A stretch of 64,000 nucleotides of DNA, taken from contig NZ_JAOBPO010000001.1 in assembly GCF_025574485.1 (NCBI RefSeq), positions 131,501-195,500 on the forward strand. Direction: 5' to 3'. A program made the translations under genes and the position numbers. Positions 1 through 2,398 of the stretch are shown here, one piece after another; positions within the stretch are counted from its first letter, which is position 1, and every line of letters starts with the position of its first letter. The notes beneath the pieces were generated by a model. That model worked only from the letters and a program-made list of their open reading frames with translations. It was not told the origin of the DNA and did no database searches. Source of the stretch: Kordiimonas aquimaris. GTDB lineage: Bacteria > Pseudomonadota > Alphaproteobacteria > Sphingomonadales > Kordiimonadaceae.

Positions 1-821
1 ATATCATCCATAATTGCCTTGAGGCGCGGCGATGTTTTAAAAACTTCATGCGTTATCATCCACAAACGCCAACCAGCATCAGGCAATATATCTGAAGCAC
101 GTTTAAGCCTTGCATCATTATCACCCATAAAAATTGGCAAGCGCCCTATACCGCCTGCTGCAATCAATTCCTGCTTTGCCCAAATATCATCCGTATGAAC
201 AGTTGAGATACCACCAAGTGCTTGCTTCATGTCGGGTGAAACAGGTACTTCACCATGCCGCATTACGTGAACGGCATCGGTTCTATCGTATGCACAACTT
301 TCATATACTGCCCCTCTCAATGTTCTGAGCATCTGACCCGACAACGGATAGTCAGGCGGCTTTCGCAGGATACGCAGTGCAATGTCAGCCTCTCGTGCTT
401 CAATTTCCTCCAGTTTATAGGTTGCGACAATATCAAATGTATATTCAGGCCGTTTTCGCACCATATCGGTAAACATTTTTGCGGTAAAAGGCGCGATATG
501 GGGAGGCATTGTAATACGAATAGGTCCGCCAGAATTTGCATCGCCTCGAAACAACAGCTGTTCTGCTGACGTCAGTGAGGCTTCAGCGGTTTCTGCTGCA
601 ACAAGAAGTTCTCGCCCTATAGCGGTTAAATTATACGTTCCATCAGCGCGAACAAAAAGCTTAACGCCAAGCTTTTCTTCAAAACCTTTCAGGCGCCGAC
701 TAATCGTTGTGCGGTTCACATTTAATTGTTCAGCTGCCGCTTCCAACGTTCGAAATCGGGAAAGCGCCAGCAATATTGGCATTTCTGCCCAAATATAGTC
801 CATATGTGCAAAATCGCTCAT
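1..821 (-). CDS. LysR-family transcriptional regulator (C-terminus cut by window edge)
   Basis: The reverse strand reads open from the ATG at 821 to the left edge, giving about 273 residues without a stop. The N-terminus has the LysR winged helix-turn-helix pattern (alanine-rich helix, then NVNRTTISRRLKGFEEKLG), followed by a LysR substrate-binding domain (GPIRITMPPHIAP onward). LysR proteins are usually about 300 residues, so only a short tail is missing. The gene diverges from the dehalogenase-like gene at 899 across a 77-bp gap, the usual arrangement for a LysR activator and its target. The effector is unknown; regulation of the neighbouring pair is inferred. An ATG at 803 is a possible alternative start. 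Confidence 0.9.
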   Translation of the reverse strand, partial: MSDFAHMDYIWAEMPILLALSRFRTLEAAAEQLNVNRTTISRRLKGFEEKLGVKLFVRADGTYNLTAIGRELLVAAETAEASLTSAEQLLFRGDANSGGPIRITMPPHIAPFTAKMFTDMVRKRPEYTFDIVATYKLEEIEAREADIALRILRKPPDYPLSGQMLRTLRGAVYESCAYDRTDAVHVMRHGEVPVSPDMKQALGGISTVHTDDIWAKQELIAAGGIGRLPIFMGDNDARLKRASDILPDAGWRLWMITHEVFKTSPRLKAIMDD

Positions 822-898
822 TCACTTGCAATAACACACGTTGACTAATAATGCCAAGACGAAAAACTAATGCGCATCAACAGCGAAGAAGAGATAAT
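822..898. promoter_or_regulatory. Divergent LysR / hydrolase intergenic region
   Basis: This 77-bp gap separates two divergent start codons and is where a LysR operator and both promoters are expected. It carries a ribosome-binding stretch (AGAAGAGAT) just before the ATG at 899, which supports that start over an in-frame ATG at 851. I see no clear -35/-10 pair, and the operator assignment rests only on the gene arrangement. Confidence 0.35.
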
Positions 899-1915
899 AT
901 GATAAAAAAATCTACCCAAATATTAACGATAATCACCAGCCTTATCACAATAGGGCCAGTATCAGCACAAGTGGAAGATAGTGAATTAGCGCGCCATGAT
1001 TTTCCTTATAAGTCCAATTATGTAGAAGTTCTCGGCTCCAAAATGCATTATGTCGACACCGGCGGCGAGGGCTCCATCGTTGTCATGATCCATGGTCAAC
1101 CAACCTGGTCTTATCTATGGCGCAATGTAATTCCACATGTTGAAAATGAGCACCGCGTTATTGCACTCGACTTAATCGGGTTTGGAAAGTCAGACAAACC
1201 TGACATTGAATACCGCGCAACCGATCACGCACGTTATCTACAAGGGTTTATGGACACGCTCGCACTGGATGACATCACACTGGTTGTTCATGATTGGGGT
1301 TCCATGCTCGGTTTTGACTTCGCCGCCAAAAACCCAGAACGCATCAAAGCAATCGCCTTTATGGAAGCTGGCGTTATCACGGCACCTCCTGAAGTGCCTT
1401 ACGGGCGTGTTAAACCAAAACTCTCCGGTGAAGCCCCCACTGTTATAGAAGGTTTTGCCAACCTGATAGGACAAATCAGAACCCCTGGTGTCGGTGAAAA
1501 GATGATTCTAGAAGACAATTTCTTTCTGGAGCGTTTGGTACTACCCAGCTTTGAAGACCTGCTGACTGAAGATGAAAAAAATGCATACCGCGAACCTTTC
1601 AGCGAAGGTAAAAACCGTCGGCCTATGCTGCAATTCCCACGCGATGTCGCCATTGGTGACAAAGCGCCCCAATACACACTTGATATGATGAAAAACTACA
1701 GCATGTACCTGCTTAAGCAAAAAAACATGCCCAAGCTGCTTTTGCATTTAAGTGAAGGCTTCCTCATTCAGCGCTGGGACGTGGAATGGATGCGCCGCAA
1801 TTACGAAGACCTCACTGTCCATAATATGGGCCCAGGCGGGCATTATATGCAGGAGTTCAACCCAGACGGTATTGGCAAGGCAATAAATATCTGGATGCGT
1901 GACAACAACCTTTAA
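899..1915 (+). CDS. Secreted haloalkane dehalogenase-like alpha/beta hydrolase
   Basis: The 338-residue protein aligns by eye along its length with subfamily II haloalkane dehalogenases (LinB/DhaA), which hydrolyse carbon-halogen bonds. The triad is visible: nucleophile Asp132 with halide-binding Trp133 (VVHDWGS), acid Glu156 (MEA) and His315 (GGHYMQE). The oxyanion segment reads HGQPTWSYLWR, so Gln67 stands where the family has the second halide-stabilising Asn. Residues 1-24 form a signal peptide ending VSA-Q, so the enzyme probably works in the periplasm. The ATG at 899 has a good ribosome-binding site and starts directly at the signal peptide; the frame is open back to 851. It is followed 15 bp later by a secreted RidA-like gene and likely controlled by the divergent LysR. 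The true substrate is unknown. Confidence 0.85.
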   Translation: MIKKSTQILTIITSLITIGPVSAQVEDSELARHDFPYKSNYVEVLGSKMHYVDTGGEGSIVVMIHGQPTWSYLWRNVIPHVENEHRVIALDLIGFGKSDKPDIEYRATDHARYLQGFMDTLALDDITLVVHDWGSMLGFDFAAKNPERIKAIAFMEAGVITAPPEVPYGRVKPKLSGEAPTVIEGFANLIGQIRTPGVGEKMILEDNFFLERLVLPSFEDLLTEDEKNAYREPFSEGKNRRPMLQFPRDVAIGDKAPQYTLDMMKNYSMYLLKQKNMPKLLLHLSEGFLIQRWDVEWMRRNYEDLTVHNMGPGGHYMQEFNPDGIGKAINIWMRDNNL

Positions 1916-1930
1916 TCAGAAAGACCAACA

Positions 1931-2398
1931 ATGAAAAAGATATTCTTAGCAGGTGTACTCGGTGCACTCATTAGCTCAACGGTGTTTGCACAAGGAAGCA
2001 GGCAGGGCGCTGTGCCCCTTATCCCCGATAATTGGCAAAATATATACGAAGAATACGGTTTTGCTCCGGCATTGAAAGTTGGAGACACAATCTATGTCTC
2101 GGGCATGATTGTTCGCCTCATGGGAGAAGGCACCTATGAAGAACGCTACGCAAACGGCATCAAGGCGACTTTTGAAATGTTAGAAAAAATCCTCGCTGAA
2201 GGCGGCGCAACACTTGATGACATTGTGGACATGACAAGCTTTCACACCGACTTACCAAGGCAAATGGCAACCATCCTGTCTGTAAGGAAAGAACTGATGA
2301 ACCAGCCACACCCTGCATGGACGGCTGTTGGCACAACATCCCTTGCAATTCCTGATGGTCAAACAGAGATAAAATTCACGGTTAAGTTAAAAGAATAA
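1931..2398 (+). CDS. Exported RidA/YjgF-family protein
   Basis: The 155-residue protein has a signal peptide (residues 1-20, VFA-Q) and then a RidA/YjgF fold: strand motif YVSGMI, the helix around ATFEMLEKILAEGGATLDDIV, and a C-terminal PDGQTEIKFTV strand. Cytosolic RidA enzymes hydrolyse reactive enamines using an Arg in a PARS motif; here that segment reads PAW (Trp130), so the classical imine-deaminase residue is absent. It lies 15 bp behind the dehalogenase-like gene on the same strand and probably shares its mRNA. A periplasmic role linked to that hydrolase is inferred; the exact activity cannot be stated. Confidence 0.85.
   Translation: MKKIFLAGVLGALISSTVFAQGSRQGAVPLIPDNWQNIYEEYGFAPALKVGDTIYVSGMIVRLMGEGTYEERYANGIKATFEMLEKILAEGGATLDDIVDMTSFHTDLPRQMATILSVRKELMNQPHPAWTAVGTTSLAIPDGQTEIKFTVKLKE

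Follow-up and report, generated by a model that had tools for sequence, protein, structure and literature searches.

Does a small gene cluster in Kordiimonas, a marine genus, encode an enzyme and an accessory protein that act together in the periplasm, or do a regulated hydrolase and an unrelated protein simply lie side by side? The question is raised by a locus at the left end of the window (the 64,000-nucleotide stretch analysed here, comprising bases 131501-195500 of contig 1 in a genome of 3.81 Mb and 26 contigs, termed G000 below). There, a gene for a LysR-type regulator diverges from two closely spaced genes, the first encoding a homologue of haloalkane dehalogenases and the second a member of the Rid family, and both products begin with what appear to be export signals. 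The features of the locus are as follows (window coordinates).

1..821, minus strand: LysR-type regulator gene, continuing 34 bases past the left window edge (start codon at 821; full open reading frame at L003 9967-10821, 284 aa)
828..845, no strand assigned: candidate LysR operator, 18 conserved bases containing the inverted repeat CAA-N9-TTG (from spacer alignment and shuffles)
899..967, plus strand: predicted signal peptide of the dehalogenase homologue, with possible cleavage after VSA (home-made score)
899..1915, plus strand: gene for a subfamily-II-like homologue of haloalkane dehalogenases, 338 aa, predicted to be exported (NF002938, PF00561, catalytic residues)
1097..1099, plus strand: codon of Gln67, where a halide-binding Asn is usual (alignment; available part of PMC6920932)
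1931..1990, plus strand: predicted signal peptide of the Rid protein, with possible cleavage after VFA (home-made score)
1931..2398, plus strand: gene for a Trp-type, YjgH-like member of the Rid family, 155 aa, predicted to be exported (PF01042, match to yjgH, 1pf5)
2318..2320, plus strand: codon of Trp130, where RidA has its catalytic arginine (alignment; available part of PMC4433059)

Layout of the locus and predicted export

The open reading frames lie where an earlier, sequence-only reading of this DNA had placed them, with the two plus-strand genes 15 bp apart (bases 1916-1930) and diverging from the LysR gene. The longest frame for the dehalogenase homologue begins at 851, and the inner ATG at 899 was chosen as its start, because a purine-rich stretch precedes that codon and a signal-type N-terminus opens there. 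Farther downstream, at 2772-2981, lies what we take to be a cold-shock-type gene. A consensus scan returned no plus-strand promoter upstream of the dehalogenase-Rid pair, and the numbers of promoters and terminators found in such scans were below those in shuffled sequence (1 versus a mean of 3.9, and 1 versus a mean of 2.6, respectively).

The same reading had assigned signal peptides to both proteins, and each N-terminus does begin with positive charge, continue with a hydrophobic core and close with an A-x-A-like motif, as judged by a home-made, uncalibrated score (not SignalP) that combines hydrophobic stretch, charge and the A-x-A motif at the best in-frame Met. By this score, export-type N-termini are found in all six dehalogenase orthologues and all four Rid orthologues of the genus, in 6 of 9 other dehalogenase homologues of the order (a set that includes a second copy from this genome), and in three of the five Rid-family genes of the window’s own genome. 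Export is therefore not exceptional for the dehalogenase, given those six further homologues, nor for the Rid protein, given the three Rid-family genes of its own genome and a second exported Trp-type lineage in four genomes. The N-termini are thus consistent with the export of both proteins, a predicted trait that appears to be common in this order.

Recurrence of the unit and a candidate operator

The complete arrangement of LysR, dehalogenase and Rid genes was found in three of 19 genomes of the genus (G000, G052 and G067). The sequence-only reading had staked its proposal on the pairing being present in some other genome, and the pair, together with its divergent LysR gene, does recur in two; in these, identity to the window’s proteins is 75-81% for the dehalogenase, 71-73% for Rid and 53% for LysR. 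The dehalogenase and Rid genes are separated by 15, 20 and 10 bases in G000, G052 and G067, respectively (the Rid start in G052 being a chosen inner ATG), and because these gaps are so short, a shared transcript is likely.

The individual genes are distributed somewhat more widely. Orthologues of the dehalogenase (69-81% identity) are present in 6 of the 19 genomes (the three above plus G085, G079 and G099), and Rid orthologues (68-73% identity, apart from the window’s own) in four (the same three plus G099). In G085 no Rid gene follows the dehalogenase, the next gene lying 82 bases away on the opposite strand; neither G085 nor G079 has a Rid orthologue, with no match in G079 at E 1e-12. In G099, an assembly that is 76% complete, the Rid and dehalogenase genes are on separate contigs, and the latter diverges from a gene for a protein with Trans_reg_C and PD40-repeat domains (L062 5211-8616) rather than from a LysR gene. 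The Rid protein is therefore not required. The branching within the six orthologues is left open by the dehalogenase tree, so that gain and loss of Rid cannot be separated.

Beyond the genus, the pairing is narrow. Among 396 genomes sampled from the order (taken as the same set for both genes), the dehalogenase is matched at E 1e-52 or lower in 14, with at most 48% identity outside the six orthologues, and Rid is matched at 1e-20 in 36, 53% identity being reached only in G007 and G040, neither of which is one of the 14. No Rid match was found within (mostly) 1.5 kb of the nine dehalogenase places outside the genus, nor a dehalogenase match within a similar distance (again mostly 1.5 kb) of the 22 Rid places (from a total of 29 beyond the genus) for which loci were available. 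In samples of the class and phylum, which overlap each other and that of the order, the dehalogenase was matched in 1 of 385 genomes (class, 1e-75, own genome included), and Rid in 10 of 230 (class, 1e-22, own included, the others at no more than 38% identity) and 1 of 398 (phylum, 1e-28, own genome included). Plasmid records contained only homologues below 60% identity (209 and 136 records), and a scan of genome contigs returned two loci.

These distributions bear directly on a rival explanation, in which the functional unit consists of the LysR regulator and the exported dehalogenase only, and the Rid protein is a passenger with a different, general role in the periplasm. A divergent LysR gene or homologue accompanies the dehalogenase in five of the six loci, with Rid adjoining in just three, and G085 retains the surrounding genes of G052 and G067 with Rid absent; elsewhere in the genus, other exported Trp-type Rid genes lie with genes for peptidases and an OPT transporter. 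Against this, all four Rid orthologues were found in genomes that also have the dehalogenase (unlinked in one case), and the gaps of 10-20 bases favour a common transcript. Rid orthologues occur in four of six genomes with the dehalogenase versus none of 13 without it (Fisher p 0.0039, in a test that counts related genomes, some of them incomplete, as independent). On balance the passenger explanation is a tentative one, possible and somewhat less than probable.

The genes around the unit are partly shared among relatives. G052, G067 and G085 have in common an oppositely oriented SnoaL-like gene and a 3-hydroxyisobutyrate-dehydrogenase-like gene beside LysR, as well as a gene with a 5'-nucleotidase C domain followed by one for a hybrid histidine kinase (shared neighbours were judged by their place and similar starts, and Pfam was run on the G067 copies). 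In the window’s genome, the nucleotidase-domain gene and the gene next to it lie to the left of LysR, and SnoaL-like and dehydrogenase-like genes do not adjoin the unit. The product of the nucleotidase-domain gene (L003 5741-7264) has a signal-type start by eye, and its sole Pfam match is to the C-terminal domain of 5'-nucleotidases, a metallophosphatase domain being absent up to E 1; the gene that follows directly (L003 7264-9915) is large, and its counterpart in G067 encodes the hybrid histidine kinase.

The regulator itself has the N-terminal domain of its family (Pfam HTH_1, 46.5 bits versus a cut-off of 26.6), with a LysR_substrate domain that scores 19.0 bits in the window’s protein, under the cut-off of 28, and 34.3 bits in the orthologue at L017. 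Its homologues in the four other genomes are 45-54% identical to it. When the five LysR-dehalogenase spacers were aligned, a single conserved block was seen, at 828-845 in the window: the best match to it in each of the other four, taken together, agrees at 64 of 72 positions, compared with a mean of 43.8 and a maximum of 49 in 500 dinucleotide shuffles (spacer limits in G085 and G079 were placed by eye and are inexact). The CAA-N9-TTG repeat is retained in four of the five, its left half being lost in G067. A degenerate pattern of the block, allowing up to two mismatches, identified 17 sites in the six genomes, namely the five loci (four exact, G067 with two mismatches; these are matched by construction, because the pattern was derived from them) and 12 others, all with two mismatches; no further site with zero or one mismatch was present in the six genomes, and a reversed control yielded 6 sites. 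In G099, where LysR is not beside the dehalogenase, no site for the pattern was found on the dehalogenase contig. The block is thereby a candidate operator that may be bound by the LysR protein.

In favour of the exported, regulated pair that had been proposed from the sequence are its recurrence, the intact catalytic residues of the dehalogenase (described below) and a conserved candidate operator; the proposal is weakened by the narrowness of the pairing, by the dispensability of Rid, by the exported Trp-type Rids found in peptidase clusters elsewhere in the genus and by the lack of imine hydrolysis in Salmonella Rid7 (also below).

Two predicted proteins, both with relatives of known structure

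The dehalogenase homologue matches PF00561 (99.5 bits) and exceeds the threshold of the haloalkane dehalogenase family model NF002938 (323.1 bits versus a cut-off of 241); its best solved relatives are the ancestral enzyme AncHLD5, variants of DhaA, and 5mxp (DmxA). The Asp-His-Glu triad by which haloalkane dehalogenases are defined (in the available part of PMC6920932) corresponds to Asp132, His315 and Glu156 and is kept in all six orthologues of the genus. In an alignment of these six with nine of the ten other places in the order (the tenth, L067 on contig 56 of G016, was omitted on account of an open frame of 477 residues that exceeds the gene), Asp132, Trp133, Glu156 and His315 are invariant. 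The usual halide-stabilising pair of Asn with Trp or Tyr is present only in part: Trp133 is retained, and the second position is Gln (Gln67) in all six orthologues versus Asn in all nine other homologues.

The same replacement is found in DmxA of Marinobacter sp. ELB17 (5MXP), which, like the window’s enzyme, combines an Asp-His-Glu triad and a Trp with a Gln in place of the halide-binding Asn (PMC6920932, available part), and which also shares the stretches HGQPTWSYLWR and HDWGS. According to the same partial source, DmxA accepts 26 of 30 halogenated compounds as substrates, is counted in subfamily II, and shifts to another substrate group when its Gln is changed to Asn. Because Gln67 replaces Asn as in DmxA, the window’s protein is, by its residues, a ‘subfamily-II like, atypical’ dehalogenase homologue. 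It differs from DmxA in its signal-type N-terminus, in 13 additional residues of the cap region and in its LysR and Rid neighbours, and the word ‘operon’ is absent from the main text of PMC6920932. A second precedent is LinB of Sphingomonas paucimobilis UT26, a dehalogenase that is reported to be periplasmic, as is predicted here, but ‘without molecular processing’ (from a title cited in the available part of PMC6771000), in contrast to the signal-type N-terminus of the window’s enzyme.

The genus orthologues have also diverged in ways that might suit a rival explanation, in which the hydrolase has moved to another reaction of alpha/beta-hydrolases (that of an esterase, an epoxide hydrolase or a luciferase-like enzyme), with or without Rid taking the product. 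Their cap loop (Ala157-Thr195) spans 37-39 residues versus 22-28 in the nine other homologues, and is also longer than in five solved relatives with printed alignments; Gln at the second halide position occurs in all six of them and in none of the nine; and the stem leading to their group in the tree is long (1.55 changes per column). Nevertheless, the Trp beside the nucleophile, the acid Glu and the base His are all retained, the NF002938 cut-off is passed, and DmxA, which shares the Gln, has dehalogenase activity according to the part of the source available, all of which makes a change of reaction unlikely. A structural model of the protein, from three sequences, is poor (mean pLDDT 45.6), and the substrate specificity of putative members of the family is described as not predictable in the available part of PMC6920932.

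The window’s genome contains a second export-type dehalogenase homologue (contig 11, 279813-280679; L063 5808-6815), 40% identical to the first, in which the halide-binding Asn is retained; the surrounding 12 kb contain no Rid gene.

The Rid protein belongs to PF01042 (66.5 bits), and with 35.9 bits it does not reach the RidA family score (TIGR00004, cut-off 106.25). Its closest solved relative is yjgH (1pf5; 78.7 bits, the next scoring 35.1), and it has a Trp (Trp130) at the position of the catalytic arginine of RidA, with Glu146 kept, a combination that is not that of RidA proper and has the residues of Rid7. It had been read from the sequence as a RidA without its catalytic arginine; the arginine is indeed absent, but this is a known trait of a subfamily and not a defect of RidA proper. 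It is no sign of a degenerate RidA, Trp at this position being common to Rid4 and Rid7 in the part of PMC4433059 available. In that same portion, Salmonella Rid7 is reported not to hydrolyse the leucine-derived imine that was assayed, and Rid4 to Rid7 are described (in 2015) as completely unknown in function. YjgH of E. coli (Rid7) resembles the window’s protein in having Trp for the catalytic Arg with the Glu kept (PMC4433059, available part), and this closeness favours, at the level of sequence, Rid7 over Rid4. The chain of YjgH starts 7 residues before the match to residue 31 of the query, and hence is without the export segment of the window’s Rid. The latter is thus classed as an ordinary member of the Trp-type Rid subfamily, which is without a characterised role. 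We know of no dehalogenase neighbour of YjgH. An AlphaFold2 model of the Rid protein (three sequences, mean pLDDT 68.0) was read as poor, and a Foldseek search with it returned no match reaching E 0.001, the 50 matches listed including no structure of a Rid protein.

A second lineage of export-type Trp-type Rids, approximately 40% identical to the window’s, is found near peptidase-like genes at L042, L043, L045 and L049 (genomes G049, G029, G061 and G067). The neighbouring domains are M24, S9 and an OPT transporter at L042 and an Xaa-Pro dipeptidase of amidohydrolase type at L049; the remaining neighbours in this lineage were assigned by similar gene starts rather than by domain runs.

A proposed periplasmic unit and its implications

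The best supported statement about this locus, and one that is very probably correct, is made at the level of genes: it encodes a LysR-linked, exported, atypical subfamily-II-like dehalogenase. Going further, the preferred explanation, for which the chances appear to be evenly balanced, is a LysR-switched unit for periplasmic dehalogenation or detoxification, with LysR and the dehalogenase as its core and the Rid protein as an optional accessory. The LysR-type regulator, acting on the block at 828-845, would control a divergent two-gene transcript, the first product of which, a subfamily-II-type dehalogenase, would after export act in the periplasm on a halogenated compound that is small and probably natural, hydrolysing it ahead of its entry into the cytosol. 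In such a reaction, Asp132 would serve as the attacking residue and His315 and Glu156 would drive hydrolysis of the ester, with Trp133 and Gln67 holding the halide. The second product would be an exported Trp-type Rid, probably a trimer like others of its family, which in the same compartment might bind or process a reactive product, or might protect proteins from halogen stress.

That the dehalogenase and Rid work together as a periplasmic unit could, in our estimation, go either way, and a product-handling role for Rid is possible, its basis being that the two genes co-occur in a few related genomes. For protection there is a cytosolic parallel, in that N-chlorinated RidA of E. coli guards the cytosol against halogen stress (PMC4284807, available part). 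The more general proposal, that exported Trp-type Rids are periplasmic partners of secreted hydrolases and that the present one either takes the product of the dehalogenase or guards against halogen stress, is doubtful. No description of an exported dehalogenase-Rid-LysR pairing was found in the titles and abstract openings of the open-licence literature, where the single paper found to mention both ‘haloalkane dehalogenase’ and ‘RidA’ discusses each separately in the passages available.

The regulated pair bears on two questions: which compounds haloalkane dehalogenases act on naturally, where there is no pollution, and what role is played by Rid proteins that lack the arginine. The inducer of the LysR protein would be a lead to the substrate, and the candidate operator could be used in a reporter. 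Should Rid be only a passenger, the finding would come down to a dehalogenase, exported and atypical, that has a local regulator, which is ordinary. If the partnership is true, the locus would provide the first substrate context for an exported Trp-type Rid, and with it a function for its subfamily.
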